DNA of 64,000 bases from Nannocystis exedens (lineage in GTDB: Bacteria > Myxococcota_A > Polyangia > Polyangiales > Polyangiaceae). Shown here one piece after another: positions 20,501-40,718 of this stretch. The DNA is taken from contig CAMAVR010000002.1 in assembly GCA_945861885.1 (NCBI GenBank), positions 87,171 through 151,170 of the forward strand, given 5' to 3'. The stretch's first letter is position 1; each line of letters opens with the position of its first letter. The notes beneath the pieces are model-generated. The model ran no database searches, was not told the origin of the DNA, and worked only from the letters and a program-made list of their open reading frames with translations. The translations under genes were made by a program, and so were the position numbers.

Positions 20501-21214
20501 CTATGCGGTCCAGTCGATCGATGTGGGGACTTGAAGACCGATCGCTTCAGGTCGCGGGAAGCTCAGTCCGCACGCTTTTACGGCAGAGCGAATGTCGTTC
20601 ACGAAATCGGCCATAACGGCGCCAGAATCGCGCTTTTTTAGCCCAACCTGAAGCGCATAACGTCCGCCTTCGGTGTCGGGACGCCCAAACGACAACATCC
20701 CTTGTTTGAACCACGTTTCAAAATGCTTCTGCTTGATGTCGTTAAACTGACCGCTTCGACAGAGCTCGATCACAATTTTTTCGCCGAGGCTCTGGTGGCC
20801 CGTCTCCTCTTTTATGATCTTCGCAATAATTTCGCGGTAGGGAAGAAACGAGCACTGCTCGTATTCACGAAGCTGCCAGAGGCCGCCGCGGTCGTATAAA
20901 AACTGCGCCATCGCGAGCTCAAACCAACTCTGGGCAAACGCGATCGGCTTTCGCGCGAGCCGCGCGTTGACGCGCGGCTCAACGCTCTCGCCGACAAACT
21001 GTTGAAACATCGTGGCGACGACTTCGTAATGCTCCATTTCTTCGCGAATGTGCCACGTCAAAAATTTGAGCCATTTTAGTTCGGGGACGAACTGCAGCCC
21101 GTACCCAAACATCTGAGCCGCGGCCAACTCGCGGTACGCCTGGCTCTCCATCATTTGCGTTACCACCGCGACCATTTGCGGCGGCATCTCATCTTTGTTC
21201 GAAAACAGTTTCAT
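20501..21214 (-). CDS. PaaA/PaaC-like diiron (ferritin-like) protein
   Basis: A 237-residue helical protein with two diiron-type motifs, REEMEHYEVV and KEETGHQSLGEKIV, plus further Glu residues (E30 region, E125 region). The pattern matches the phenylacetyl-CoA epoxidase/benzoyl-CoA epoxidase superfamily. It is much shorter than BoxB (about 470) and shorter than PaaA (about 310), nearer to PaaC size. No reductase (BoxA or PaaE) gene is adjacent. It is the last gene of a minus-strand unit behind a CoA ligase and a creatininase-like hydrolase, so an oxygenation of a CoA-bound acid is a reasonable guess; the substrate is unknown. Confidence 0.72.
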   Translation of the reverse strand: MKLFSNKDEMPPQMVAVVTQMMESQAYRELAAAQMFGYGLQFVPELKWLKFLTWHIREEMEHYEVVATMFQQFVGESVEPRVNARLARKPIAFAQSWFELAMAQFLYDRGGLWQLREYEQCSFLPYREIIAKIIKEETGHQSLGEKIVIELCRSGQFNDIKQKHFETWFKQGMLSFGRPDTEGGRYALQVGLKKRDSGAVMADFVNDIRSAVKACGLSFPRPEAIGLQVPTSIDWTA

Positions 21215-21227
21215 CGAAGTGAATCTC

Positions 21228-22016
21228 CTAGAAGAGCGATTCCGAGCAATCAGCGACTACTTCGTCTAAGACTTCCCCGGCGATCATTTCTGCGAGTTTG
21301 CCAATCAAGTACTCGCCTTCTTCGCGGGTCGATTCGCTCGGCGTGCCGGCGTATGCGCGCGTGAGGCCCATTTCAACAAAGCTCGTTTTTCCTAGGCGAA
21401 TTTCATCCGACAAACTTGTCGCAATCGAGGGCAAATTGGTTCGATCGGCCGCCACAAGCGATTCATCGATCGCTAGGACAAGTGATGTTTCGTAGCGCCC
21501 GGCGTGGCAGTTGCCGCGTTTAAATTCATCGGACAACGTTCTCCCCCATTTTCGAGTGAGGGGAGATGCAACCGATGCGCGTCTCGACGGAATGTCCGCG
21601 ATTGCCGCGCGAACGGCGGCATCGTGTTTCGGTTCGAGGTGATTGTTTACAACAACCACGTGAGACCAGCCGTCGCGCACCAATGAATCGACGACGGCGC
21701 GCACAAATGCTGCCAAAACATCCGCTGGGACACCAACGGCCCCAGGAAAGTCTGCTGCAAATTCGGTTACTCCATACGAAATCGCGGGAGCTATACGGGC
21801 GGTGATTCCGCGGGCTTCGAGAAGTGAAACGGCCAAAAAACAGCTCGCTTCGCTGATAAGCGTGTCGGTCGCCAATGGCAGGTGCGGGCCGTGAGGCTCG
21901 ACGCTTCCAATCGGGAGGAGAATGGCGGTTCGTGGCTTCGAAACGAGAGCGCGAACTTCATTCGTGGTGAGCGCGGCAAGATGATGAGATGCGAGCAACG
22001 TTGAAGGCGCGGTCAT
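21228..22016 (-). CDS. Creatininase-family amidohydrolase
   Basis: A 262-residue protein with the metal-binding blocks of the creatininase/MftE family: PIGSVEPHGPHLPLATD, VVVVNNHLEPKHDAAV and HAGRYETSLVL. These supply the Glu, His and Asp ligands of a dinuclear metal site used to cleave amide bonds. The usual GHGGN loop is replaced by NNHLEPKH, as in several related hydrolases. Family members act on creatinine, formamides in flavin and folate-like pathways, and peptide bonds in mycofactocin. Its start overlaps the stop of the ligase gene (ATGA) and the diiron protein follows 13 bp later, so the three products probably work together. Confidence 0.83.
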   Translation of the reverse strand: MTAPSTLLASHHLAALTTNEVRALVSKPRTAILLPIGSVEPHGPHLPLATDTLISEASCFLAVSLLEARGITARIAPAISYGVTEFAADFPGAVGVPADVLAAFVRAVVDSLVRDGWSHVVVVNNHLEPKHDAAVRAAIADIPSRRASVASPLTRKWGRTLSDEFKRGNCHAGRYETSLVLAIDESLVAADRTNLPSIATSLSDEIRLGKTSFVEMGLTRAYAGTPSESTREEGEYLIGKLAEMIAGEVLDEVVADCSESLF

Positions 22017-23665
22017 GTTTCGGTTGGAACCTGCTCCGCAACAAGTTCACTTCGACGAAGCGCTTTGCGATCGAGTTTTCCGCGATCGTTGCGCGGCAAT
22101 TCGCGTACGAAATCGATCGTTTTAGGCACCTTAAAATGCGCCAAGTTTGTTCGAACATGCTCCTGCAATTCGGTCACGGAAGCCTCTGTTCCGCTCCTGA
22201 GCACTACAAACGCTTTTGTTCGAAGAAGCCCGTCTTCTTCAATGCCGATCACTGCCGCGCCCGAGACCAAGTCGTGCGTCATCAAGCAGTTTTCAACTTC
22301 GATCGGAGAGAGCCACTGACCGCTGACTTTTAACAGTTCATCGGCGCGCCCGGCGAAATAGAAATAGCCATCGTGATCGACCAAAAATAGATCGCCAGTT
22401 CGGCACCAAGCACCATGAAACATCGCGCGACTCTTTTCACGATCCAGCCAGTATCCGTGCGACATACTATCGCCGCGAACCCATAGAACGCCGATCTCTC
22501 CCGGTGCACACTGCGGCGACCCAGTGCCGATCGCGTTTTCGGGTAAAACGCGAAGTTCGTACCCGACGACCGCGCGCCCAAGCGAGCCTGGACGGACATC
22601 GGCCGGGCGGTTTGTTACGTAAATGTGAAACATTTCGGCGGAGCCGATTCCATCGAAAATTGGGCTATGAAAACGTGATGTCCACCGCTCCAGGAGAGTT
22701 TGCGGCAGCGCTTCGCCCGCCGAAAGCGAAAACCGAACGGCCGACAAGTCAAAGAACTGGCCGGCAGCTCGAAGCTCATCGTCGCGGTCCAAAAATTTGC
22801 CGATTGTGGTTGGAACATTCGTCACAATCGTCGGGCGATACATGTCAATCGCGTTCGCTAGCGAGTCGACTGTTGGGCGCTCGCTGAACAAACATGCTGT
22901 TGCGCCAACTGAAAACGGGAAGAGCAGATTGGTGCCGGTCGCATAACCAAAAAATAGGCGCGGAACGCTTACGGTAACATCGCTTTCGCGATAGCCGACC
23001 GTTCGCTTCGCATACGCTTCTGCGTTAAACGCAAAATCGCGGTGTGCGTGGATGTTCGCTTTTGGCTGCCCGGTCGAGCCGCTTGTAAAGAGCCAAACGG
23101 CCGGTTCATCGCGGTGTGTTGCGCACGGTCGATAGAGCGCTTCTGTACTCGCCATCCCGCTCGCCAGGTCGACACAGCGAGCCATATCGATGGGGCCGGT
23201 CGGTGTGTCGCAATCGTCGCCGGTTGCCAGATGACGGGTGAGAAAAATATGGCGAAGCTCGATGCGACTGGACGTTTCAAAGAGCGACCGCAACGAAAGA
23301 GCAACTTCGGGGGTTGTAACAAGCGCGGTGCAGCGGGTGTATTCAACAAGATGCGAAAGCTGCAGGCTTGGCGTGAGCGGATTGATCATTGCCGCCACGC
23401 AACCGTTTGCGATCGCACCAAAAAAAGCCCACACAAATGGCGGCGAATCGGGAAGAGCGATCAGAACACGCTCGCCACGGCGCACATCTGCCGAGCGAAG
23501 CAGCCCTGCGAACGCACGCGTGCGCCGCGCAACCTCGCCATAAGAATAAGCAAGAGAGCCGAAACGCAGCGCCGCTTTGTCGTGGAAACGACCGTCGCTC
23601 TGACGAAATAGAAAATAGTCGGTGAGGTTGAAGAGTTCGGGTATCTCGGGAAGTGAGTGCGTCAT
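22013..23665 (-). CDS. Benzoate-CoA ligase-like acyl-adenylating enzyme
   Basis: A 550-residue ANL enzyme. The ATP-binding loop FTSGSTGQPK, the A5-like block DGIGSAEMFHIYV, the block TGDLFLVDHDGYFYFAGRADELLKVSGQWLSPIEVEN and the C-terminal catalytic Lys in DRGKLDRKAL are all present. The overall pattern is closest to the benzoate-CoA ligase family, which activates aromatic acids with ATP and CoA. Acetate or other acids are possible, since I cannot test the acyl pocket. Its start overlaps the transglycosylase stop by ATGA and it is translationally coupled to the creatininase-like gene. Confidence 0.85.
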   Translation of the reverse strand: MTHSLPEIPELFNLTDYFLFRQSDGRFHDKAALRFGSLAYSYGEVARRTRAFAGLLRSADVRRGERVLIALPDSPPFVWAFFGAIANGCVAAMINPLTPSLQLSHLVEYTRCTALVTTPEVALSLRSLFETSSRIELRHIFLTRHLATGDDCDTPTGPIDMARCVDLASGMASTEALYRPCATHRDEPAVWLFTSGSTGQPKANIHAHRDFAFNAEAYAKRTVGYRESDVTVSVPRLFFGYATGTNLLFPFSVGATACLFSERPTVDSLANAIDMYRPTIVTNVPTTIGKFLDRDDELRAAGQFFDLSAVRFSLSAGEALPQTLLERWTSRFHSPIFDGIGSAEMFHIYVTNRPADVRPGSLGRAVVGYELRVLPENAIGTGSPQCAPGEIGVLWVRGDSMSHGYWLDREKSRAMFHGAWCRTGDLFLVDHDGYFYFAGRADELLKVSGQWLSPIEVENCLMTHDLVSGAAVIGIEEDGLLRTKAFVVLRSGTEASVTELQEHVRTNLAHFKVPKTIDFVRELPRNDRGKLDRKALRRSELVAEQVPTET

Positions 23666-27067: not shown

Positions 27068-28309
27068 CTATTCGTGCCTGAGCGCGACGATCGGATCAAG
27101 TTTGGCGGCGTTGTGAGCTGGAATAAAACCGAACAATATTCCGGTCAGCGCGCTGCTCCCGATGCTCAATGCAAGCGCCGTCGGGCTGAGTTTCATCGGC
27201 CACTCGAGCACAGTTTCTCCTAGTGAAATAAGCGCAATTCCTACTACGGCGCCGGTCGCTCCGCCGCAGAGCGACAAGACAAGCGCTTCAATCAAAAACT
27301 GAGCCTGGATGTCCGCGGCTCGCGCGCCGACGGCAAGGCGCGTCCCAATTTCACGCGTTCGCTCGGCGATGCTCACAAGCATGATGTTCATGATCCCAAC
27401 GCCGCCAACGATTAAACTAATGCTAGCAATGGCGATCATTAAAATTGTTAACAGCCCGTAGACGGTCGACTGCATTTCTTGAAATTGCTGCTGCGTTCGA
27501 ATCGTGAAGTCGGCGTTTCCGCTCGGTTGAATTCGGTGCCGTTGTCGAAGAATTGCGGTGACTTGATCGACCGCACGATTCGTAGTTTCTGGCGAGGTTG
27601 CTGACAACAAGAACACGCCAACAAAGCCCGGTGACGTATGCATGATGCGCGCGCGCATTGTCGAAATTGGCATCAGAATAACGTCGTCCTGATCGCCCCC
27701 AAACGGAGCATCGCCTTTTTTTTCGAGAAGGCCGACAACGGTAAAAATTTGTCCGCCGATCCGAATTCGATGCCCCGTCGGGTCACCTCCTCCAAAGAGC
27801 TTTTCTCGCACTGTTTCGCCGATCACGCAGACTTTTGCTTTGGCAAGTTCGTCGAGCGCGGACCATCGTTCGCCACGAGTTAGCTTCCAATCTCGAATTG
27901 AAAAATACGGGAGAGTTGTTCCGTTTACGTTGGTCGACCAGTTGCGCTGGCCGGTTAACACTTGCGCGCGTGTTTGAATCGAGGGGGCGGCAGCCTCAAT
28001 GCTCGACGCTTCGGCCAAGATTGCCTTGCCATCTTCTTCGTTGAGTCGAGGGCCTGTCCCCACTGCGCTTCGCGCGCCTGAACGTTGCGCATTTTGCGGA
28101 AATACAATGATCAGGTTTGAGCCAAAACTCTGAATTTGAGTTGAAATTTTGGTGCGTGCGCCAATGCCGAGGGCCGTGACAACAACCACCGAGGCAATTC
28201 CGATTGTGATCCCAAGAATTGTCAGCATAGACCGCAGCGGACTTCGTAGAAGTGCGCGGAATGCGATGCGCACACTCCCGAGTCCGAACGGAATGAAGCG
28301 ACCTATCAT
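27068..28309 (-). CDS. MacB-type ABC transporter permease
   Basis: A 413-residue FtsX-family permease with the four-segment layout: one membrane helix after the cytoplasmic start (RSPLRSMLTILGITIGIASVVVVTALGIGA), a periplasmic MacB_PCD domain of about 215 residues, and three C-terminal helices that include the hallmark VGGVGIMNIMLVSIAERTREIGTRLAVGA. It is the last gene of a four-gene tripartite efflux operon. It is a separate, diverged copy of the permease gene just upstream. Confidence 0.92.
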   Translation of the reverse strand: MIGRFIPFGLGSVRIAFRALLRSPLRSMLTILGITIGIASVVVVTALGIGARTKISTQIQSFGSNLIIVFPQNAQRSGARSAVGTGPRLNEEDGKAILAEASSIEAAAPSIQTRAQVLTGQRNWSTNVNGTTLPYFSIRDWKLTRGERWSALDELAKAKVCVIGETVREKLFGGGDPTGHRIRIGGQIFTVVGLLEKKGDAPFGGDQDDVILMPISTMRARIMHTSPGFVGVFLLSATSPETTNRAVDQVTAILRQRHRIQPSGNADFTIRTQQQFQEMQSTVYGLLTILMIAIASISLIVGGVGIMNIMLVSIAERTREIGTRLAVGARAADIQAQFLIEALVLSLCGGATGAVVGIALISLGETVLEWPMKLSPTALALSIGSSALTGILFGFIPAHNAAKLDPIVALRHE

Positions 28310-28311
28310 CG

Positions 28312-29532
28312 TTATTCCGAGCGCAGGGCGTCGGTGGGGGACAGGTTGGCGGCGCGCCTCGCCGGAAGGTAGCCAAAAATTACTCCGATCATCGCGCTCG
28401 TGAGAAACGCGATAGCGACCGCGATGGGGGGTGGCGACAATGGCCAGTCAAGCACCCGCGCGAGCGCGAGCATCGCCAGCGTCCCCAGAAGAATCCCCAA
28501 GAGTCCGCCAACCAAACTGAGGACGATCGCTTCGACGAGAAATTGAACAAGAATGTCGCGCGCTCGCGCCCCAATCGACAGGCGAATTCCTATTTCGCGC
28601 GTCCGTTCGGCGACGCTGACGAGCATAATATTCATAATTCCGATGCCGCCTACAACCAGGCTCACCGACGCGACGCTGAGCAAAAGTGTGGCCAGCGCCT
28701 GCGCGATAGCCTGCTGTTTCTCGCGAAGTTCGGCCTGGGCCAACACGGCAAAGTCGGGGTCACGATCGGGGAGAATTCTGTGACGATCGCGAAGAATCGC
28801 AGTTGCCTGCTCGACAGCTCGGTCGGTCGTTTGTTCAGAAGTGGCGCTCGCAACTAGAAAGTCTGCGCGACCGGGAGCGGTTGGCCTAACCCGCGCCCGA
28901 AAACTCCCGATCGGCATCATGACGCGGTTGTCTTCGTCTTCGCCGAACGCCGAAGTTCCGCGTCGCGCGAGAAGTCCGATGACCGTACACGGCGCGCGAA
29001 CGACCCGAATGGTGCGACCGATCGGATCTTCAGTCCCAAATAGCGTGTCTGCGACGGTAGCGCCGACGATGCACACTTTCGTTTTCAGTACTTCATCGGA
29101 CGGATGCCATAAAGCTCCCGACGAGAGACGAAACTTCCTCATTTCGAAATACGGAAGAGTGGTCCCTATAATTTGAGTCGCTATGTTCTTATCGAAAAAA
29201 ATTACTTGGCCGAGCGTTTGAAGAAGAGGCACGCTCGATGAAACGCTGACAGATTCGCGAACAAGTGCGGTCGCGTCACGGTCGGTCAGACGCCCGCCAA
29301 CCTTTCCGTGCGCTCCTGATGGCTGCGTCGTCTGCGGAAAGACAAAAATGACGTTCGCGCCGAGGTGCTCGATCTGTTCCGCAAGTTTTGCCGATGCCCC
29401 AGCACCGAGCGCCGAGACCGTAAGCACCGCGCTCACGCCGACGAGAATTCCAAGCATCGTCAGCGCTGCGCGAAGCTTGTTGCGATGAATCGCGATCGCG
29501 GCAAGGCGAATTGCGTTTAGCCAGAGCACCAT
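28312..29532 (-). CDS. MacB-type ABC transporter permease
   Basis: A 406-residue FtsX-family permease with the same layout as its downstream neighbour, including LGILVGVSAVLTVSALGAGA near the start and VGGIGIMNIMLVSVAERTREIGIRLSIGA in the C-terminal part. The two lie only 2 bp apart. The pair may form a heterodimer with the shared ATPase, unlike E. coli MacB, which is one chain used as a homodimer. Confidence 0.92.
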   Translation of the reverse strand: MVLWLNAIRLAAIAIHRNKLRAALTMLGILVGVSAVLTVSALGAGASAKLAEQIEHLGANVIFVFPQTTQPSGAHGKVGGRLTDRDATALVRESVSVSSSVPLLQTLGQVIFFDKNIATQIIGTTLPYFEMRKFRLSSGALWHPSDEVLKTKVCIVGATVADTLFGTEDPIGRTIRVVRAPCTVIGLLARRGTSAFGEDEDNRVMMPIGSFRARVRPTAPGRADFLVASATSEQTTDRAVEQATAILRDRHRILPDRDPDFAVLAQAELREKQQAIAQALATLLLSVASVSLVVGGIGIMNIMLVSVAERTREIGIRLSIGARARDILVQFLVEAIVLSLVGGLLGILLGTLAMLALARVLDWPLSPPPIAVAIAFLTSAMIGVIFGYLPARRAANLSPTDALRSE

Positions 29533-29535
29533 CGT

Positions 29536-30822
29536 CTATCTTCGCCTCGAAAATAGCCACAAGAGCGAAAAACGCACGAGCGCGGCGGCACACATGGCTG
29601 CAATGAACGCGAGCCAACTCAACGCAAATTGGAGCGAAGTGGTTGGTGAAAGCAAGGCGATCGTTTGCGCATCGAACCTAGGAATTGCGATCCAGATCAG
29701 AATAGGAGTTAGGGCAATAGCCCCCCCAGCGGTGTACCAAAGCGCCAGACGTGAACATTGGTCGCTTGTTAGTCGGGATCGCAATAGCGACTTTGAACGA
29801 CGGGCGACAAGAACGGCTTCGGCAACAGGAATTGCGAAGGCAAACGTCCACGGAGTTTCGGACGCCAAAATAGCTTTGTTATAAATAGCTGCGATCACAG
29901 CGCCGGTGATCGTTCCGAAAAACATCATTGCGTAGAGCGACAATGGAAGAGGCGAACCGAAACGGCCACTCTGTTCGACGCCAAGCGGGGTCGATGCTGC
30001 CGGGGCGAATTGCTCGATGAATGTTGACGGATCTTTAATCGATTCTAGCGCGGCGCTCGCATCGATAGGCGCGAGGTTGGCGGAATCGTCGACGACGAGC
30101 CCATCGCGCATCGTTAGTACGCGGGAGGCGCACGCGGCGATATCGCGTTCGTGCGTTACAAGAACGATCGTGATCTTACGCTCTTGATTCAACTTTTGAA
30201 GGAGCGCAAGCACTTCAAAACTTGTGCGGGTGTCGAGATTGCCGGTCGGCTCGTCGGCAAGGAGAAGTGGAGGGTCCGTCACCAACGCTCGGGCGATCGC
30301 CACGCGCTGCTGCTGGCCGCCCGACAGCTGCGCGGGTGTATGATGAAGGCGGGAGGCGAGTCCGACCGCTCGGAGCGCCTCGGTTGCCAGCTGTCGACGC
30401 TGCTGTCGTCGTACGCCGCGATACTGGAGGGGAAGTTCGCAGTTTTCGAGTGCGGTCGTGCGGGACAGTAAGTTAAATCCCTGGAAAATGAAGCCGATTA
30501 GGCGATTTCGTACGATGGCGCGAGCGTCGTTCGATCGCTCGCTGACGTCGAGCCCTGCAAGGCGATATGTTCCACGGCTCGGACGGTCAAGGCAGCCGAT
30601 AATGTTCATCAATGTCGACTTGCCAGAACCGCTTGTTCCGACAATTGCAACGAATTCTCCTCTCTTTATCGAGAGAGAAATATCTCTCAGGGCGCAGACG
30701 GTGCCGCTGCCTGATGCGTAGTCTTTTGAAAGTTGGCGAAGCTCCAACAGCGCTTCATTTGCACCGGTCGTGTCAGTGCTCGATCCGAACTCGGCGCGGG
30801 CCGCCGTTGAGTTCGGGCGCAT
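29536..30822 (-). CDS. MacB-like ABC ATPase with extra C-terminal membrane domain
   Basis: A 428-residue protein. Residues 27 to about 250 are a MacB/LolD-type ATPase: Walker [10 protein letters not shown] (62-70), Q-loop, signature LSGGQQQR (166-173) and Walker B LLLADEP (186-192). The remaining 175 residues carry four hydrophobic segments (about 293-313, 325-341, 362-381 and 397-425), which a stand-alone ATPase does not have and which do not look like the FtsX permease fold. The protein starts at the ATG of a TGATG overlap with the membrane fusion gene. The extra domain may anchor the ATPase or contact the permeases. Confidence 0.88.
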
Positions 30823-32084
30823 CAGAAGAGTTTTCCTGTTTTTTTGTCGTGTAGATCGATTTCGTCGACGACAACGCGCGTGCCTATCGGTAACGCGTTT
30901 CCAACCAGCGCGGTATTGATGCCGTCGGTGACTCCTATGGCGACTTCGCGCACTTCTTCGTGTTCGAAGCCGTTTGCGTCGGCAGTCAGCACGTAAACCC
31001 TTGCCATCCCCTTACCGAGCGGCGGAGCGGTCGGTTGTGGAGTCGGCTTGCCGTCGGGGCCGCGAGGCGGGGAAGGGTGGTATCGGAGCGCGGCGTTGGG
31101 AATCATAGAGACCCCATCCGCATGCCGAGTGTGCACGGTGATCGTTGACGTCATCCCCGGGCGAAGTTTCTGTTCTCGATTGTCGACGTCGATTACCGCC
31201 GAATAAGTCACGACGCCGAGAACGGTGTTTGGGCTAAACCGAATTTGCGAAAGAGTCCCTTCAAACACATCACCCGGGAATGCGTCGACGACTGCGTCCG
31301 CCGACATCCCCTTCGCTACTTTCCCGACATCGGCTTCGTCAATGTCGGCCAGGACGCGCATTTTTAGCAGATGTTGCGCGATCACAAACAGTGTCGGCGT
31401 TTGGAAGCTTGCAACTACCGTCGCACCGAGATCGATCGCGCGCGAGATGACAAACCCATCCACTGGCGAGACAATTTTTGTGAAAACAACGTTTGCTGTT
31501 GTCTGCGCAAGTTGTGCTTCTATCGCCTGAATGGTGGCGAGCGATGATCGCACGTTTGCTTCTGCAATTTCGTTGTTCCCGCGAATTGTGTCGAAGTCGC
31601 TTCGGCTCGCCAACCCCTGCCCGAAAAGCTTTCGAACGCGGTTAAAATTAATTTCCGCGATCGTTGCGCTCGCTTTGATGCTTTGAAGGTTGGCACGTTG
31701 CGCGGCTAGATTCGCCGTCTGCTGTTTGACTTGGGCGTTGTAAACGGTCGGGTCGATTTCGGCGAGGACGTCGCCTTTTTTTACGGAGGAATTAAAGTCG
31801 ACATGGATTGCGACCACACGACCGCTTACCTGCGCGCCGATATTTACTTGAAGCAGCGGCTGCACCGTCCCCGTAGCTTGGACTTTTTCGACAACGTTGC
31901 CGACAGCTACTGTTGCGGTGACAAATTTTTCTGCTGGCGGCGGCCGGTGCTTGACTCGATAGAGAAGCCCGCCGCCGATAAGAATAGCGACAGCCACGAA
32001 AATTAACGCGCGGCGCCGCCACTGACCGCGCCCCTCAGCGGCGGCCAACGAGCGATGCAGTTCTTCTATGACCGGTTCTGACAT
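30822..32084 (-). CDS. MacA-like membrane fusion protein
   Basis: A 420-residue HlyD/RND-type periplasmic adaptor. One N-terminal membrane helix (ALIFVAVAILIGGGLLY) is followed by the biotinyl-lipoyl half GAQVSGRVVAIHVDFNSSVKKGDVLAEIDP, a long coiled-coil hairpin (about residues 110-200), the second half SPVDGFVISRAIDLGATV, and beta-barrel and membrane-proximal domains. It would link the inner-membrane ABC complex to an outer-membrane TolC-type channel; no tolC gene is in the window. It is the first gene of the efflux operon, 25 bp after the stop of the S9 peptidase gene. Confidence 0.93.
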   Translation of the reverse strand: MSEPVIEELHRSLAAAEGRGQWRRRALIFVAVAILIGGGLLYRVKHRPPPAEKFVTATVAVGNVVEKVQATGTVQPLLQVNIGAQVSGRVVAIHVDFNSSVKKGDVLAEIDPTVYNAQVKQQTANLAAQRANLQSIKASATIAEINFNRVRKLFGQGLASRSDFDTIRGNNEIAEANVRSSLATIQAIEAQLAQTTANVVFTKIVSPVDGFVISRAIDLGATVVASFQTPTLFVIAQHLLKMRVLADIDEADVGKVAKGMSADAVVDAFPGDVFEGTLSQIRFSPNTVLGVVTYSAVIDVDNREQKLRPGMTSTITVHTRHADGVSMIPNAALRYHPSPPRGPDGKPTPQPTAPPLGKGMARVYVLTADANGFEHEEVREVAIGVTDGINTALVGNALPIGTRVVVDEIDLHDKKTGKLF

Positions 32085-32092
32085 GGTTGGGA

Positions 32093-32104
32093 CGTATCGA
32101 TACG
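32093..32104. promoter_or_regulatory. 12-bp perfect palindrome before the efflux operon
   Basis: CGTATCGATACG is an exact palindrome placed 9 bp upstream of the membrane fusion gene start on the minus strand, in the 25-bp gap after the peptidase gene. It could be a small operator or part of an mRNA structure near the ribosome site, or chance. Confidence 0.25.
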
Positions 32105-32109
32105 ATATG

Positions 32110-34170
32110 TCAATTTTGGAGAAGATATTTTCGTATGAACTGGGATGTCAGATAAAGCTGAAAGGCCCGATTCGATCGCTTCCTGAAGCCGTGTCCTTCA
32201 TCGTTGGCGACGAGATACCACACCGGCACCGCTCCGGCTCGAACGGCCGATACAATTTGCGCAGCTTCGCTTAACGGAACGCGCGGGTCGTTCTTCCCTT
32301 GAATCACAAAAAGAGGCTTCTTTATTTTTGAGGCATGATTGAGCGGCGCAATTAGCTCAAGAAAAGCGCGCATTTGCGGGTCACGCTCATCGCCGTATTC
32401 GACGCGTCGCAAATCGCGTCGGTACGGTTCGGTATGCTCCAAGAATGTAACCAGGTTGGACATCCCTACAATGTCGATTGAACAGGCGATTCGGTCGGAA
32501 TAGTCGACCGATGTCGCAAGTGTCATGTGGCCGCCGTAGCTTCCGCCTTCGATCATGATTTCGTCGGAATTAAATCGAGGATCATTGCGGATCCAATCTA
32601 GGAGCGCCCCGATGTCTTTGTAAGAGTTGGTGCGCAAATAGCCGTCGTCGAGAGAAAGAAATGTTTTGCCGTATCCGGATGAGCCGCGAACATTCGGAAA
32701 GATGTACGTGATTCCAAGCTCGTTCACGAAGTAGTTCTTGGTGTCGAGAAACCCGGGCCTCGCCTGAGATTCGGGGCCGCCGTGAATTGATATGACGACG
32801 GGGCGCTTTCCGGTGAATTTTGGCTGCGCAACCATGACACCCTCAATTGTGCGTCCGTCAAACGTCGGCCAATGAACAAATTGAGCTTCCGCGAAATCTG
32901 CTTTGTTAAACGAGCCGAGGCCGTCGTCGGTCCATTGAACAAACTCATGTTTGTCGACGTCGAACGTGAACACCGCTCCGGCAACGTTCGATGACGCAAG
33001 CGAGAATGCGAACGTACGCTTGTGAGGGTGCCAGCGAAGAGATGAAATGACGCCGTTTGGAATCGCAGGTACCGGCCTAATTGCGCCGCTCTTTAGATCG
33101 AAGAGATAAACGCGATCGAACCCTTCATTTGCAATAAACGCGATCGTGCGCTTGTCGTGCGAGATATCGAACGCTTCAATGTCTGCGTTTGCTTTGCTAG
33201 CGAGGGTGCGCTCTTTTCCCGAAGCAATGTCGATAGCGACAAGTTGCATGAATTCAGATGAAGCGTTCGATAGCGCGATCACTTGTTTGCTGTGGTCGAA
33301 GAATTTTCCGTTGATTACTGGCGTGGCGCTCAAAAATCGCGGGCTCAGATAGGCGGCGTGCGGTGCGCCCGGCTTTGGCGCGAGTTGACGCTTCGCCCCG
33401 TTTGCGACGTCAACCAGCCACACCGAGCTGTCGGTGATCGACGTTGCTTCTGTGGCAAGAAGCTGTCGTTCATCCAATGACCAATCAAGAATGTTCCACG
33501 CCTCGCCGTGCTCGAGTGTCGTAATAAGCCTCTCGCTTTGTCCCTTTAGAGGGTCGGCAACGTAGAAATCGTAGTCGCGACCGTTTCGTCTTGTTGACGC
33601 GTAGGCGAGCCACTTGCCAGACGGCGAGAAAACGCCGAGCGAATTTTTCGATTTTCCATCGGTCAGAAGGGTCGTCTCTTTTGTCGCAAAGTCGTAGCGG
33701 TAGGTTTGATTCCATTCGTTGCCGCCCGCGTCGCGGCTAAAAATAAAGTAGGCGGCGGTGTTCGGCGGAAATTGCGCCGAAGATACGCGATCCGGAAGAA
33801 TCGTTAGCGGCTCGAGAGCTCGTTTCGGCGCTTGTAAATTGTGAACTTGTTGTGTGTTACCGACTTGCGCGAGAACAAGCATTTCATCGCTCGATGCCAG
33901 CGGCGCCCATGACGCAAAATGTTTTGGTGTGAATTGCGTATAGCGAACGATCGGTTCCGCAAAACTTGTCGGAATCGGAGGAATCCCATCAAGAACCAGA
34001 TTTGATGGAAACACGATAAAAGGCTCGGTTCCTCCCGCCAGAGTTAGCGATTCGTTGCTCCCCGATGCCCCCATTTTTGGTGGCGCCGCTTTCCCTGAAA
34101 TGCAGCCGATCAGGCCGATTATCGCCGGCAAAATTAGCGTATTTGCCGAAAACCACTGTAATTTACCCAT
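32110..34170 (-). CDS. S9 (prolyl oligopeptidase/acylaminoacyl-peptidase) family lipoprotein
   Basis: A 686-residue serine peptidase. The ATG at 34170 gives a signal peptide ending in the lipobox LIGC; the longer frame to 34236 does not begin with a signal. The N-terminal 400 residues form a WD40/TolB-like beta-propeller with repeated SPSGKWLAYAS-type strands. The C-terminal alpha/beta-hydrolase domain has the nucleophile in GGSYGGH, Asp in NDPRVP and His in DEGHGF, plus the oxyanion block SIHGGPESQ. It should cleave short peptides in the envelope. It may be co-transcribed with the MacAB-like genes, which would fit peptide processing linked to export. Confidence 0.9.
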   Translation of the reverse strand: MGKLQWFSANTLILPAIIGLIGCISGKAAPPKMGASGSNESLTLAGGTEPFIVFPSNLVLDGIPPIPTSFAEPIVRYTQFTPKHFASWAPLASSDEMLVLAQVGNTQQVHNLQAPKRALEPLTILPDRVSSAQFPPNTAAYFIFSRDAGGNEWNQTYRYDFATKETTLLTDGKSKNSLGVFSPSGKWLAYASTRRNGRDYDFYVADPLKGQSERLITTLEHGEAWNILDWSLDERQLLATEATSITDSSVWLVDVANGAKRQLAPKPGAPHAAYLSPRFLSATPVINGKFFDHSKQVIALSNASSEFMQLVAIDIASGKERTLASKANADIEAFDISHDKRTIAFIANEGFDRVYLFDLKSGAIRPVPAIPNGVISSLRWHPHKRTFAFSLASSNVAGAVFTFDVDKHEFVQWTDDGLGSFNKADFAEAQFVHWPTFDGRTIEGVMVAQPKFTGKRPVVISIHGGPESQARPGFLDTKNYFVNELGITYIFPNVRGSSGYGKTFLSLDDGYLRTNSYKDIGALLDWIRNDPRFNSDEIMIEGGSYGGHMTLATSVDYSDRIACSIDIVGMSNLVTFLEHTEPYRRDLRRVEYGDERDPQMRAFLELIAPLNHASKIKKPLFVIQGKNDPRVPLSEAAQIVSAVRAGAVPVWYLVANDEGHGFRKRSNRAFQLYLTSQFIRKYLLQN

Positions 34171-34296
34171 TTTCGCGCCTGTCCTGTTGTTGGAAAGAAG
34201 TACGCGCAAGTTGACACAGACGCGCGCGCAGTTCATCTTCCCGGGCCCATCTGCCGCCCAAGCGGCTCCGCGCTATTTACCCGTATAGGTTCGAAA

Positions 34297-34513: not shown

Positions 34514-36574
34514 TTAGTTTTGTGCGCGCCGATTTCGCAGCGCGCCCACCCAGGCTCGCGCGCTTCCAATGGCTACAAATATTACGCACCCGAGAAGCAC
34601 GATTGTGACCGTCGCGTTTACGATTCCGTGCGGGCGGCGGCTTGGGTCGCGCGCCATCGGAATATAGATGTCTCGCAGACTAAGAATTGCGGCGGAAAGG
34701 GTTGTTGTTCCTACGAACAGGAGTGGCAAAAACGTCACTAGCGCATAGCGTCGCTTGGTTGCTGTTTTGACTAGGATCGTTGTTCCGATGCAGAGGGCGG
34801 TGCACGCGAGCAGTTGATTCGCGATCCCAAACATCGGCCAGATCGTCGAGATGCTGCCGGTGAGAATAAAATAGGACCATGCGGCAACGATGAGAGATGT
34901 CGCGACAATGTTGCCGACCAAATTTGTCGACTCGCCCCATTTCGGAACCGCAAACCGTAAAAAATCTTGCACGACGAAGCGACCAATTCGTGTTCCCGCA
35001 TCGATCGTTGTTAAGACGAACAATGCTTCGAACATGATCGCGAAATGGTACCAGTAGGAGAGCAGCTTGCTCATGCCGGGGAAGTGGCTAAAAACCTCCG
35101 CCATTCCGATCGCGAGCGACACGCCGCCGCCGGTTCGTGCCGCGACAACTTCGCCTGCCGATTTTGACAGTCTCGGGAGATCTTTTACGTGCAAGCCGAG
35201 GCGCAAAAAATCGGCGCTGTCGAGCGATTCTGCGTGCTTGGCATCGGGGTCAACATGATAACCAAGTCCTGCCAATGCGCGGTTTGACAGTGCGAGCGCC
35301 CTTGATGCCGGTATCGATCGCGTTGCGACGGACGAGATGGTCACGTTCGCGTTCAAACCAATGATACGACGATCTTCGTTTGAAAAAAATGGAAGCGTGT
35401 CTTCGAGCTGGCCAATTGAACGCGCCAGGCCGACGCCGTGCGTCTGCTCGCTAGCAACAATTGCGACGGACGGGTCGGTGTTAATTGCAACATAATCGGT
35501 AGGCGACATGACGCATGCAGCAATCAGCGCGGTGATGCCTACGATCCCTTCCATCAACATCGCGCCGTAGCCGATCATTCGGCAATCGCGTTCACGATCG
35601 ACCATTTTGGGCGTCGTGCCGCTCGCAACAAGCGCGTGAAAACCGCTGATTGCGCCGCATGCGATGGTGATAAATACGAACGGAAAAACGCTCCCTTTAA
35701 TGATCGGTCCGCCGCCGTCGACCCATTGCGATATGCCCGGCATTTGAATCGCTGGGTTGACGACCACGATTCCGACAATCAGCAGCGCAATCGTCCCTAG
35801 TTTTAAATAGCTCGACAGGTAATCGCGCGGGCACAACAACACCCAAACGGGGAGGACGCTGGCAAAGAAGCCATACGCGGCGATCGCCAATGTGAGCGAT
35901 GTTCGCGAAATTCGAAGGTAGTCTGCCAAGTTTGTATCGGCGACCCATTTTCCGGCAATAAGCGCTGCGAGAAGCGCGATACAGCCGGCGATCGTTGCCT
36001 CCCGAATACCCCGCGCGCTTCCGCCGCGAAACCGCTGAATATGAACCCCCATGCAGATGGCGATTGGAATTGACGCGGCGACCGTAAATACCCCCCAAGC
36101 GCTTTCTGAGAGTGCTCCCACGACCACGTTTCCGAGCCCGGCAAGCGCGATCACAATGATGAATAGAATTGTTAGCGATGTAACAAATCCGAGCTTTGGA
36201 CCGAGCTCTTCTCTGGCGATTTCAGCGAGCGAACGACCGCCGCGACGAACACTCGCGACGAGAATTACAAAGTCTTGAACAGCGCCGCCGAGAACGACGC
36301 CGATGAGGATCCAAAAATAGCCCGGAAAAAACCCGAACTGGGCGGCAAGGACCGGCCCAATGAGCGGCCCTGCACCGGTAATCGCCGCAAAGTGATGCCC
36401 AAGCACAACCCATCGATTGGTCGGCTGATAATTAAGGCCATCATTCAATGTGTGCGCGGGAGTGATGCGCGCGTCATTCAGAACTAAAACGCGCGCGGCC
36501 AAAAATGCAGAATAGTAGCGGTAGCCAATCGCAACGACCGCAAGGGCAGACAGCATCCAAAGAGCAGCGTTCAT
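34514..36574 (-). CDS. cstA: Carbon starvation protein CstA-family transporter
   Basis: A 686-residue membrane protein with about 16-18 hydrophobic segments. Family blocks are DGLNYQPTNRWVVLGHHFAAITGAGPLIGPVLAAQFG near the N-terminus, GGRSLAEIAREELGP, SGFHALVASGTTPKM and WPMFGIANQLLA near the C-terminus. CstA-type proteins take up pyruvate and peptides during carbon starvation. The start MNAALWML at 36574 matches the family N-terminus; the frame extends to 36646 without a good site. It is divergent from the ycaO gene with only 55 bp between the starts. Confidence 0.94.
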   Translation of the reverse strand: MNAALWMLSALAVVAIGYRYYSAFLAARVLVLNDARITPAHTLNDGLNYQPTNRWVVLGHHFAAITGAGPLIGPVLAAQFGFFPGYFWILIGVVLGGAVQDFVILVASVRRGGRSLAEIAREELGPKLGFVTSLTILFIIVIALAGLGNVVVGALSESAWGVFTVAASIPIAICMGVHIQRFRGGSARGIREATIAGCIALLAALIAGKWVADTNLADYLRISRTSLTLAIAAYGFFASVLPVWVLLCPRDYLSSYLKLGTIALLIVGIVVVNPAIQMPGISQWVDGGGPIIKGSVFPFVFITIACGAISGFHALVASGTTPKMVDRERDCRMIGYGAMLMEGIVGITALIAACVMSPTDYVAINTDPSVAIVASEQTHGVGLARSIGQLEDTLPFFSNEDRRIIGLNANVTISSVATRSIPASRALALSNRALAGLGYHVDPDAKHAESLDSADFLRLGLHVKDLPRLSKSAGEVVAARTGGGVSLAIGMAEVFSHFPGMSKLLSYWYHFAIMFEALFVLTTIDAGTRIGRFVVQDFLRFAVPKWGESTNLVGNIVATSLIVAAWSYFILTGSISTIWPMFGIANQLLACTALCIGTTILVKTATKRRYALVTFLPLLFVGTTTLSAAILSLRDIYIPMARDPSRRPHGIVNATVTIVLLGCVIFVAIGSARAWVGALRNRRAQN

Positions 36575-36629
36575 GGGAGTATTTGGATATCGTTTATCGG
36601 GGACAACGGTTCGAAACAGATGAGGTGAC

Positions 36630-37907
36630 GTGCACCCCACAAGCATTGGTGATCAAAATAATACGCGCAAAGTCTTTTTCGAAGGGACGCATCGTACCTC
36701 GCACCCGAATGAAACGTTTGCTCGTATTTCGCCATTTCAGCGAATGATCGGTGTCACGCGCATCGCGAATGTCACCGGTCTCGATCGAATTGGAATACCC
36801 GTATGCGTAGCTGTAAGGCCGAATGCGCGTTCTTTGGCGACGGCTCAAGGCAAAGGAGTCACGCTCGAGGCGGCGCGTGTGTCGGCGCTCATGGAATCGC
36901 TTGAGGTCTGGCATGCCGAACGGGTCGCCTTGCCAAGGCAGATTGGCACTTACGCCAAGTTGCGCCGTGATGGGGTTTCAGTCGTCGATATCACGCGGTT
37001 GCCGATGCAACCAGGAGCGAGTCTGTCCGAAGACGAACCGGTTGAATGGATTGAAGGTTTTGATCTTGTTTCTCGGAAGTCCACGCTGGTTCCGTTCGAT
37101 GCCGTTTCGCTCGATCTTACGCCGCCATTTGGTGAAAAACCGCTCGCCTTTTCAGTTTCGAGCAACGGTTTGGCATCGGGAAATTGTTGGGCCGAATCGA
37201 TCGTGCATGCCGTTTGCGAATTGATCGAACGAGACGCCTGCGCATTGTGGTTTTTGGAGCCGATCGCGCTGCGAAAGCCGCGTCAAATTGCCATAAGCAC
37301 GATAACGGATCCAACATGCGAACGTATCGTTCAGCAAATTGAAATGGCAGGGCTTCGTATCGCTTTATGGGACATGACATCAAACATCGGCATCCCAGCG
37401 TACGCTTCTCTTGTGATGGACGACGCGGCGACGCCCTACGCTGGATCGGTCAGCTTCTGTGCCGGATACGGTTGTCATTTATCATCGGCGGTTGCTGCGT
37501 GTCGCGCGCTGTGTGAAGCGGTGCAGACTCGTCTGACGATGACTGCGGGGTCGCGTGATGATCTTCCACAGCGTGAGTATTTGCGCACGACGGACCGGGC
37601 GGCTTGGCGTCGCGTGTACAACGACGCAACCTGCCCACCCCCCGAAGCTACGTTCGTCGATCGATCGTTGGCCGGCGATCTCGTTGAAGCTGATCTCACT
37701 CAGCTCATTGGCCGTCTTCAATCTATCGGTATCGAGCAGATTGTCGTTGTCGACTTGACCCAGCCGGATATTGCCCTTCCGGTTGTCAAAGTGATCATCC
37801 CTGGGCTCGAGGGGGCGCCTTTTTTGTCAGGCTACACCCCAGGAATTCGCGCCCTCGTGCATCGCATGATGCTCTCGCGAAAAGGCGTTTGGGCTGGCGC
37901 TTCATGA
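36630..37907 (+). CDS. YcaO-domain enzyme, predicted thioamide-forming
   Basis: A 425-residue YcaO protein from a GTG start at 36630 preceded by GAGGTG. YcaO enzymes use ATP to phosphorylate a backbone amide so that a thiol or sulfide can replace the oxygen. Visible ATP/Mg motifs are AQGKG (72-76), SALMESLE (85-92), the block NGLASGNCWAESIVHAVCEL running on to IERD (179-202), GYGCHL (279-284) and RALCEAVQTR (292-301), then VVKVIIPGLEG. The C-terminus ends in GVWAGAS and lacks the Pro-rich PxPxP tail of azoline-forming cyclodehydratases, which agrees with pairing to TfuA. The stop overlaps the tfuA start by ATGA. No precursor peptide gene is visible on either side. Confidence 0.92.
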   Translation: MHPTSIGDQNNTRKVFFEGTHRTSHPNETFARISPFQRMIGVTRIANVTGLDRIGIPVCVAVRPNARSLATAQGKGVTLEAARVSALMESLEVWHAERVALPRQIGTYAKLRRDGVSVVDITRLPMQPGASLSEDEPVEWIEGFDLVSRKSTLVPFDAVSLDLTPPFGEKPLAFSVSSNGLASGNCWAESIVHAVCELIERDACALWFLEPIALRKPRQIAISTITDPTCERIVQQIEMAGLRIALWDMTSNIGIPAYASLVMDDAATPYAGSVSFCAGYGCHLSSAVAACRALCEAVQTRLTMTAGSRDDLPQREYLRTTDRAAWRRVYNDATCPPPEATFVDRSLAGDLVEADLTQLIGRLQSIGIEQIVVVDLTQPDIALPVVKVIIPGLEGAPFLSGYTPGIRALVHRMMLSRKGVWAGAS

Positions 37908-38683
37908 CGAGAGCGATTGTCTTTGTCGGGCCGACGTTGGCGAGAGCGGACGCGATCACCATTCTCGACGCCGACTACCGACCCCCGGCGCAAATGGGCG
38001 ATATTTACGCGGCCGCTGTAAGCGCGCCGACGGCGATCGGGATTGTGGACGGGTATTTTCACAGCGTCCCGGCTGTTTGGCACAAAGAAGTCCTGTTCGC
38101 TCTGGCGGCTGGCATTCACGTTTATGGCGCAGCAAGCATCGGCGCGTTACGCGCTGCCGAACTTGCAGTATTTGGAATGCGCGGGATTGGTGCGATATTC
38201 AATATGTACAATAACGGCGTATTGGAAGATGACGATGAGGTCGCTGTCGTTCATGGCGCCGAAGAGCAAGAATATAGGGGAATATCTACTCCTATGGTCG
38301 ACATCCGCGATGGGCTTCGCCGCGCCGTCGCATGCGGAATTATTTCGGAAGAACTATCAACGCATTTACTGGTTCTTCAGAAGAATAGATTTTACGCAGA
38401 CCGATCCTGGACGTCTGTTTTTGACGACGCGAAGCGCATGGGTCTGGCGAGTGTGACGAAATTTTCTGAATTTATTAATCACGACGTGATGAGCCTAAAA
38501 CGCCGCGATGCCATTGAATTGGTGACAGTGATGGCGCGAGAAATCCCAGACTTGTTGCCTTTTTCGCCGCAATTTCGTCTGGAATCATCGTGGGTGTTTC
38601 GACAGTCATTTCCGACAAGCAGCAGTTCCGTCAGAGACGAACTGTCCTGGACACCCCCTTGGACGTCCGGGACGGTTATGTAA
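37904..38683 (+). CDS. TfuA-like protein, YcaO partner
   Basis: A 259-residue protein whose ATG overlaps the ycaO stop (ATGA). It shows the TfuA core: MTRAIVFVGPTL at the N-terminus, PAQMGDIYAA, then HVYGAASIGALRAAELAVFGMRGIG (about 72-96), and the acidic EDDDEVAVVHG block (about 108-118). In methanogens TfuA works with YcaO to thioamidate methyl-coenzyme M reductase, and in actinobacteria and rhizobia the pair acts in thioamide RiPP pathways. Here it should help deliver sulfide for the same chemistry. The C-terminal 40 residues (Ser-rich, Trp-containing) are less conserved. Confidence 0.9.
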   Translation: MTRAIVFVGPTLARADAITILDADYRPPAQMGDIYAAAVSAPTAIGIVDGYFHSVPAVWHKEVLFALAAGIHVYGAASIGALRAAELAVFGMRGIGAIFNMYNNGVLEDDDEVAVVHGAEEQEYRGISTPMVDIRDGLRRAVACGIISEELSTHLLVLQKNRFYADRSWTSVFDDAKRMGLASVTKFSEFINHDVMSLKRRDAIELVTVMAREIPDLLPFSPQFRLESSWVFRQSFPTSSSSVRDELSWTPPWTSGTVM

Positions 38684-38756
38684 GCGCATGATCGGCCTAA
38701 AAAATAGCTAAATTCAATCGGTGACCCGCTGGCACGCATCGTGAAAAGCCCGCGGC

Positions 38757-39554
38757 ATGCGAATCCGACTCCTGCCAATCATTCAGGCCGTTTTTACGCT
38801 CATTTCTACGTCGGCTACGTTGCTTGCGCGACCGACCATGACCGAACCAGGCGTCGGCAGAGTGTCCGAGTCTCCGCCGCAGGTCGTCGAAGAGGAGGCA
38901 TCCACGGTTCCAGACTCCGAAACGGCGGCTCACACGGAAGAAACCGATGAATTGCCGAAATCGACGGAAAGCGAGCCGAGTCGCCCACGGGTGACGCCCC
39001 AAGTTGCGCGTATGGCGGTTGCTGCGGCCCTGCGCGTTGTCGGGGCCGAGAATCGAGTGGGGATGATAGCCTCGATGACCACGCGTGCGCGCTGGAGCGG
39101 GCTAATTCCATCACTATCGTTCCATTTGGCGAGACGTGAGGTCGATCAACAGCGTCTTGACTCGGGGGAGCGTGGCGAGAAGTACGGTGCGTCTCGTGGA
39201 GACTCAACATGGGTTGAGGGGCGTCTCACGTGGAAGTTCGATCGCCTTGTTTTTGCCGATGAAGAGTCTTCTTTTTCCCATCTTCGCTTTCAAGCGGTCG
39301 AGGAGCGGGCACGAATTAGCTTCCGGGTTCTCGATGCATTGGCCGCTTGGGAGCGGGCCCGTTACAACGAGGGGGCAAGCAAGCCAAACAGCTCGCTGCA
39401 CTTCGATTCTATGTTGCGTCGCGCGGCGGCAGAAGCCATTCTGGATGTTCTAACGTCCGGCTGGTTTTCAGCGTGGGCGCGCGGTTCGCCGCAGCGTATG
39501 GCTGCAGAACCATCTCTTTCACCCGCCCTTGACCGTTCGAGCGGTGGTCACTAG
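38757..39554 (+). CDS. Exported protein of unknown function downstream of YcaO-TfuA
   Basis: A 265-residue protein with an N-terminal export signal (LLPIIQAVFTLISTSATLLA, likely cleaved near ARP). A 60-residue acidic linker rich in Glu, Ser and Pro follows. The folded part has a short strand-like block (ARWSGLIPSLSFHLARR), then TWVEGRLTWKFDRLVFADEES and a long helix RFQAVEERARISFRVLDALAAWERAR. The GLIPSL and LTWKFDRLVFADEE blocks recall a conserved myxobacterial secreted family that I cannot name. It starts 73 bp after tfuA on the same strand and 17 bp before prfB, so it may belong to the YcaO-TfuA transcript. Confidence 0.72.
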   Translation: MRIRLLPIIQAVFTLISTSATLLARPTMTEPGVGRVSESPPQVVEEEASTVPDSETAAHTEETDELPKSTESEPSRPRVTPQVARMAVAAALRVVGAENRVGMIASMTTRARWSGLIPSLSFHLARREVDQQRLDSGERGEKYGASRGDSTWVEGRLTWKFDRLVFADEESSFSHLRFQAVEERARISFRVLDALAAWERARYNEGASKPNSSLHFDSMLRRAAAEAILDVLTSGWFSAWARGSPQRMAAEPSLSPALDRSSGGH

Positions 39555-39571: not shown

Positions 39572-40718
39572 ATGTTGAGTGAATCACGCGAAAAGCTAGC
39601 CGACCTTCAAAGGCGCCTCATGGTGCTAAGGGGGCATCTTTGACCTCCCGAAACTCCGGTCCGAACTAGAAAAGCTCGAAGCCGACACATTGGCTCCTGG
39701 TTTTTGGGACGATCAAAAGCGTGCGCAGCTGCATAATCGAAAGCGCGCAAGCGTTGAAAAAACGCTCACGACATTCGAGAAGCTAGCGCGTGATATCGAC
39801 GATGGGAGCGTGCTTTTAGAGCTCGGAGCATCGGAAGGAGACGAGGCGGTCACGGCCGAAGCAGCAGCGCAGCTTGGCGGGCTCGAAAAGCGAGTGCGTG
39901 CCGCGGAGCTCGAACGCATGTTGTCGGGCCCGGTCGATCACGCGAATGCGATCGTGAGCGTCCACCCTGGCACCGGGGGGACAGACGCAAAAGATTGGGC
40001 TCAGATGCTAATGCGCATGCTCCTTCGGTGGTGCGAGCGTCGTGGCTACAAAACTGAGGTCATCGATTTTCAAGAGGGGGATGAGGCGGGGATCGACGGC
40101 GTCTCGTTCACCGTCACCGGAGAAAATGCGTTCGGCTATTTGCGGAGCGAAAACGGCGTGCATCGATTGGTGCGAATTTCGCCGTTTGATTCGAATGCGC
40201 GTCGTCACACCGCATTCGCTGCAGTCGAAGTGACGCCCGACATCGAAGATGAGATCGACATCGTCGTGAAAGACGAAGATCTCGATGTCACAACCATGCG
40301 GGCCGGCGGCAAAGGCGGGCAAAACGTCAACAAAGTCGAAACGGCTGTGCGCATGAAGCATAATCCGTCCGGAATCGTGGTCGTTTGTCGAGCCGAGCGA
40401 TCACAGCTTCAAAATCGGCGGATGGCGCTAAAAATGTTGAAAGCAAAGCTCTACGAGCTCGAGCAGCAGAAGCGCGAAGAGCAGGCCGCCGCGTATCAAG
40501 CGACGAAGAGTCAAATTGCCTGGGGGAGTCAGATAAGAAGCTACGTTTTAGCCCCTTACCGCCTCGTGAAAGACGTCAGATCGTCCTATTCGGTGGGGAA
40601 CGTGGATGGTGTTCTCGACGGCGAATTGGACGATTTTATTGAAGCGTATCTGCTAGCCGCGGCTGGGGGGTCGCTGGCAAAAGGCGGAGCGTCCGAATCA
40701 GATGAGATAGAAGGGTAA
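39572..40718 (+). CDS. prfB: Peptide chain release factor 2 with programmed +1 frameshift
   Basis: RF2 reads UGA and UAA stops. Translation starts at ATG 39572 and the first 23 codons end at an in-frame TGA at 39641-39643. The site reads AGGGGGCATCTTTGAC: an internal Shine-Dalgarno, CTT slip codon, and TGA followed by C, the standard RF2 autoregulatory frameshift. The second frame starts at 39642 (GAC) and runs to 40718, giving about 381 residues in all. The stop-codon-reading block [17 protein letters not shown] and the catalytic GGQ in [15 protein letters not shown] are intact. High RF2 favours termination at the TGA; low RF2 favours frameshifting. Confidence 0.95.
39626..39644 (+). promoter_or_regulatory. 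RF2 recoding site (+1 frameshift signal)
   Basis: The stretch CTAAGGGGGCATCTTTGAC contains AGGGGG 3 bases before the CTT slippery codon in the P site, with UGA-C in the A site. It matches the E. coli prfB signal except that CAT replaces TAT between the ribosome-binding stretch and CTT. Confidence 0.95.

Follow-up and report, generated by a model that had tools for sequence, protein, structure and literature searches.

The window analysed here is a 64,000-nucleotide stretch of Nannocystis exedens DNA (contig CAMAVR010000002.1 of assembly GCA_945861885.1), and this work concerns two adjacent genes within it, ycaO and tfuA, and the peptide or protein on which their products may act. The ycaO gene (36630..37907, plus strand) has a GTG start and encodes 425 amino acids (aa), whereas the tfuA gene (37904..38683, plus strand) has an ATG start and encodes a short form of TfuA with 259 aa. 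The products match the Pfam families YcaO (E=2.5e-79) and TfuA (E=6.4e-44), and the two neighbouring genes are confirmed as a TfuA-associated YcaO pair; their coupling by an ATGA overlap, described in an earlier note on this DNA, is borne out by both the coordinates and the family matches. A single YcaO match and a single TfuA match were found in the whole genome (3.42 Mb in 89 contigs, rated 100% complete), both of them being the window pair, and three ThiS-family matches scored above the cut-off.

Both reading frames are open and intact, and their G+C contents (0.557 and 0.533) can be compared with a window mean of 0.573. The best solved relative of the window YcaO is MJ1094 (6pe3, E=1.6e-37), which we take to be a thioamide-forming YcaO, and that of the window TfuA is the TfuA domain protein 6xp8 (E=9.9e-40). 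A C-terminal PxPxP is a marker of azoline-forming YcaO enzymes; as the earlier note had observed, the window protein ends without it (...RKGVWAGAS). The ATP-binding motifs, read according to the relevant parts of PMC8120280, are preserved: SALMES at 85, GLASGN at 180, ELIERD at 197 and RALCEAVQ at 292. The protein has an isoelectric point (pI) of 6.03, and its identity to other YcaOs does not exceed 46% among the matches listed from 318 genomes of the class (own genome included).

Flanking gaps and neighbouring genes

The pair is bounded by a 55-bp gap to the divergent cstA gene (36575..36629) and by a 73-bp gap after tfuA (38684..38756). Neither gap contains a precursor-like gene, since the open reading frames (ORFs) of at least 20 aa touching them, six in each case, overlap longer genes and look like chance frames. 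The adjacent precursor gene expected of a thioamidated ribosomally synthesized and post-translationally modified peptide (RiPP) is thus absent from the flanking gaps, as the earlier note had claimed; beyond the gaps, small ORFs were not ranked individually. The mechanically called cstA ORF (34514-36646) is over-extended and overlaps ycaO, an overlap removed by the likely start at ATG 36574 (MNAALW). The 55-bp distance given in the same note holds if cstA starts at this internal codon, as we read it.

The third gene (38757..39554, plus strand, 265 aa) starts 73 bp past tfuA and probably encodes an exported protein, as suggested by a signal-like N terminus that was recognized by eye in this protein and in several members of an alignment of 10 homologues. 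A tie between this gene and the pair had been proposed, and it is not upheld by the related genomes. In a set of 98 genomes (own included, none else from its genus), homologues of the third gene, which is widespread in the order, occur in 75, with one match each, comprising 22 of the 26 genomes with TfuA and 53 of the 72 without it (Fisher p=0.30). Adjacency of the three genes is likewise not conserved: neither ycaO nor tfuA matched any of the 20 fetched loci homologous to the third gene. As in the window, prfB directly follows the third gene in five of these loci (L090, L092, L095, L101 and L102), two of which, L101 and L102, also have lysS and lolC; prfB was not seen in the remaining 15. The link with prfB is partial, yet it is the sole repeated one among the 20 loci, and the gene order shared with some relatives starts only past the 73-bp gap. 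The third gene therefore appears to belong to a gene neighbourhood other than that of the pair, and it was rejected as a partner. For its family, no solved structure was found at E<=1, and a search against Pfam gave one weak match (E=0.061) in one of 11 members.

Past the third gene, we read the ORFs as prfB and then lysS. By eye, prfB (39572-40718) starts at ATG 39572 and runs into a TGA (39641-39643) within AGGGGG CAT CTT TGA C, presumably the classic programmed +1 frameshift of release factor 2; the mechanical ORF starts only at 39690. Beyond cstA, a divergent run (27068-34236) encodes an S9 peptidase, a MacA-like adaptor, an ATP-binding cassette (ABC) ATPase and two FtsX-like permeases, the permeases being assigned by eye. 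Further away, ferritin-like, creatininase-like and AMP-ligase-like ORFs form one run (20501-23665, by eye) that is apparently unrelated to the pair.

Related pairs, the S family and the YcaO tree

With the own genome counted in both cases, TfuA was detected in 26 of the 98 genomes, and 52 of the 318 class genomes have a YcaO match at E<=1e-60. Among 43 compared loci, window included, tfuA follows ycaO on the same strand in 36; tfuA comes first in three, the genes are far apart in one, and three gave no ycaO match. Furthermore, Corallococcus is listed among the dominant thioamide cluster families of the so-called Proteobacteria in a part of PMC8120280. Contrary to what the earlier note had supposed, the pair is therefore not new for this lineage; it adds another member to a class that is recognised but unsolved, and myxobacterial thioamide clusters have already been published, according to the same part of that survey.

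In many relatives, the proteins encoded just upstream of ycaO (78-468 aa as mechanical ORFs) share a C-terminal stretch with the motifs DDGkvYk and CYvxNL. This family, termed S, is present at loci L104-L106, L108-L122, L132, L185, L197-L199, L201 and L205. An alignment of 17 S stretches has one invariant column, the Cys of CYvxNL, and a near-invariant Asn. These 17 rows gave weak matches at most to Pfam and NCBIfam models (best E=0.027, in two members), and no description of the family was found in these databases or in the literature searched; a published precursor survey may list members under a cluster number. Outside the common stretch, one of the longer S proteins, that of L116, matches the Ig-like domain Big_2 (E=2.5e-13) and, below the cut-off, an 'ocin' model (17.5 of 40 bits).

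The S profile matched 16 of the 98 genomes at E<=0.01 and gave 26 matches in 22 of the 318 class genomes at E<=0.001. For 25 of these matches a YcaO is no more than 310 bp away; for the remaining one, in L120, the distance is 2 kb. Seventeen of the 26 places were part of the alignment; the other nine are also YcaO-adjacent, some of them coming from close relatives of the genomes used. L120 has a second S copy beside a fragment of a second YcaO (L120:12360-12560, 53% identity over ~46 residues), which looks like a partly deleted duplicate cassette. Three Sinorhizobium plasmids also carry S: it precedes ycaO and tfuA in L132 and L205, and the coordinates in the third fit the same order. Genes for a kinase-AAA_16-TPR protein and for a sigma-54/FHA regulator are frequently found near S. 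Taken as sequence evidence, these observations make S the likely substrate of the pairs in S-bearing loci.

The phylogeny of YcaO was based on a careful tree of 58 rows, which replaced a first quick tree of 65 rows after seven long-branch rows, none of them S-labelled, had been dropped. A 32-row S-linked clade (support 99/94) excludes the window row. S was found at E<=0.05 in 25 of these 32 rows, two of them weak (L068, 1e-2; L114, 2e-3), and in none of the 26 rows outside the clade, window included (Fisher p=2.7e-10, in a test that ignores relatedness); its absence is less sure at some loci because contig ends cut them. By our count of the labels, 24 of the 32 clade rows and 7 of the 26 others have a relative of the L114 kinase gene within the stretch that was fetched. 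The kinase protein of L114 matches Pkinase, AAA_16 and TPR, and it scores 243.8 of 705.75 bits on a 'TOMM kinase/cyclase' model.

The window row falls, on a long terminal branch (0.84), into a looser 14-row group (80/97) with mixed contexts. These include a RiPP-like context with PqqD-M50, nitroreductase and further YcaOs (L182), an exporter-rich Paracoccus plasmid where an ABC ATPase, two permeases, ycaO, tfuA, a periplasmic adaptor and a hydrolase form one run (L130), the sulphur-carrier context of a tree neighbour, Massilia arenosa (L006), where a ThiS-rhodanese-ThiF ORF and a JAB gene immediately precede the pair, and the pairs of family f22. HlyD-type adaptors are encoded near the pair in L006 and L183.

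The f22 pairs lack an evident precursor and have a short TfuA (233-255 aa, counted from the match, at four of five loci; the fifth, L195, runs off its contig). The window TfuA, too, is devoid of the C-terminal extension seen in many related TfuA proteins, and short TfuA also occurs beside S (L115, L116 and L117). In genus g106 of this family, all 12 genomes with a YcaO at E<=1e-60 have one and the same lipoprotein gene at a distance of 20-138 bp from it; pairs without a visible precursor can therefore persist at a fixed place. This lipoprotein gene is also listed for eight f22 genomes that have no YcaO at that threshold, and in four more it lies on a different contig. This divergently encoded lipoprotein is thus unlikely to be the substrate, and a pair can stay beside an apparently unrelated gene.

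In the genome of the window pair, S was not detected: the query that matched 16 of 98 genomes gave no match at E<=10, and the fetched window locus carries only the YcaO and TfuA labels. A DNA pattern for a CYxLN-type motif gave five matches there, as against seven for the reversed control; one of the five lies 11 codons from a stop, though in a 29-codon frame, and the others lie 38 to 67 codons away, none being judged credible.

Proposed function and alternative explanations

We lean towards the view, drawn from sequence comparisons, that the pair is functional in thioamidation and that its substrate is an unlinked, fast-evolving, lineage-specific peptide or protein. The two genes would encode a two-protein backbone-thioamidation enzyme, in which YcaO would use ATP to activate a backbone amide oxygen, to be replaced by a sulphide equivalent (+16 Da). 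TfuA would help to deliver the sulphide, probably from a thiocarboxylated ThiS-type carrier; in the pertinent part of PMC13063428, thioamide-forming YcaOs outside high-sulfide environments are described as tending to use a thiocarboxylated ThiS homologue and a TfuA hydrolase. A working pair is favoured because the motifs are intact and the composition is near average, and an unlinked substrate because no precursor is adjacent. The substrate would be neither the exported protein nor a member of the S family, and probably no slowly evolving housekeeping protein. Of the overall interpretation in the earlier note, a thioamidation-type pair with an unlinked substrate is thus supported by the precursor-free gaps, the exported partner and the novelty for the lineage are not, and the ribosomal target is weakened.

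Several points weigh against this proposal. No substrate was found, and the function is therefore one that we infer; the small ORFs of the own genome were searched by profile and pattern and so were judged in part only. At 3.4 Mb, the genome is small compared with others of its family, where 55 of 61 genomes have at least 5 Mb, and this fits the loss of a partner. The link between the window and f22 is weak, with an aLRT of 91 in the quick tree and no recovery in the careful tree. Three members of the 14-row group (L182, L183 and L130) sit in RiPP-like or exporter-rich clusters. Finally, the f22 pairs are not strictly bare, because kinase-domain genes lie beside the pair in two of the five loci (L190 and L193) and, in L186, a gene of the same direction seems to end at ycaO.

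The small genome, the undetected S, the short TfuA and the long terminal branch would also suit a relic, that is, a pair descended from a cassette of the S-like or RiPP kind that lost its substrate during genome reduction, leaving the enzymes intact but idle. The divergence of the window YcaO fits a fast-evolving substrate and a relic in a reduced genome alike. Nevertheless, we regard a relic as unlikely, given the open frames, the intact ATP motifs, a G+C content near the window mean, and the occurrence of short TfuA beside S and in f22 pairs. A conserved housekeeping protein, for instance a ribosomal one, would have precedents in Escherichia coli, where YcaO thioamidates uL16 without a neighbouring precursor gene (PMC13063428, in part), and in archaeal pairs that modify McrA (PMC5589413, in part). 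Such a target is improbable here, since TfuA occurs in only 26 of 98 genomes and the window YcaO has diverged (at most 46% identity among the matches listed). For uL16 or a conserved ribosomal protein in particular, the case is unlikely because, in the relevant part of PMC13063428, the suspected uL16-modifying YcaOs are mostly acidic, have no TfuA nearby and are not rapidly diverging, unlike the window YcaO.

Export of a thioamidated RiPP made from a distant precursor, through the adaptor, ATPase and permeases of the divergent run with its S9 peptidase, would recall the gene run of L130 and the HlyD-type adaptors of L006 and L183. Moreover, the window ATPase is 47% identical to the ATPase regions of L130 and L006 (at most 35% at other loci), and the window adaptor clusters with that of L006. 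However, the exporter genes are divergent, with cstA between them and ycaO, MacAB-type exporters are common, and in a tblastn search of 64 related loci at E<=1e-5 only the ATPase was matched, the adaptor, both permeases, the S9 peptidase and cstA remaining without a match. As neither the flanking gaps nor the profile and pattern searches of the own genome yielded a precursor, this route is quite improbable. Least probable by far is the exported protein as substrate or partner: its gene lies on the same strand 73 bp downstream of tfuA, but its distribution is unassociated with TfuA, and its homologous loci contain prfB in five cases and the pair in none.

A broader proposal, which we put forward only tentatively, is that these pairs modify proteins rather than classical RiPPs. 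Many would use S, thioamidated at the C-terminal CYvxNL and often under the control of the kinase-AAA-TPR protein, and the window and the precursor-free f22 pairs would have moved to an unlinked protein target. If this were true, bacteria would have a second, TfuA-dependent route to protein thioamides, beside that to uL16.

Comparison with known systems

TfuA-associated YcaOs were set aside in a survey of heterocycle-forming clusters, their substrates being unknown (PMC4603692, in part), and the later thioamide survey, in its relevant part, covers those with predicted precursors nearby (PMC8120280). The uL16 case is an example of protein modification by a YcaO that has no neighbouring precursor, and the window provides such a pair in a small genome. 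From the comparison with the relatives, the S family with its invariant Cys emerges as a concrete candidate substrate, so the substrate question becomes experimentally testable.

The window pair differs from azoline cyclodehydratases in having neither PxPxP nor an E1-like or RiPP recognition element partner, its neighbours being cstA, tfuA and the third gene. It resembles the E. coli YcaO/uL16 system in the missing neighbouring precursor; that system has no TfuA and an acidic YcaO (pI 4.4 vs 6.03), and the window protein scores 30.5 bits on the E. coli YcaO model NF040716 (cut-off 700). With thioamide RiPP clusters of the thioviridamide and thiovarsolin type, it shares tfuA directly after ycaO, whereas its operon contains no precursor, peptidase, transporter or tailoring gene. 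By eye, it also follows the residue preferences of TfuA-associated YcaOs (Met in motif 1, His in motif 2 and Ala in motif 3; PMC8120280, in part). The methanogen pair acting on the McrA glycine likewise has overlapping ycaO stop and tfuA start codons and a substrate usually encoded elsewhere (PMC5589413, in part). The window pair is bacterial, where McrA is not expected (McrA was not searched for), and scores below the cut-offs of the McrA-related equivalog models TIGR03266 (235.1 of 365 bits) and NF033432 (213.3 of 235.2 bits). Although it has no S or kinase gene beside it and no detectable S in its genome, the window pair is close to the S-ycaO-tfuA cassettes of the relatives and the Sinorhizobium plasmids, with which it shares the same ycaO-tfuA order and a neighbouring YcaO clade.
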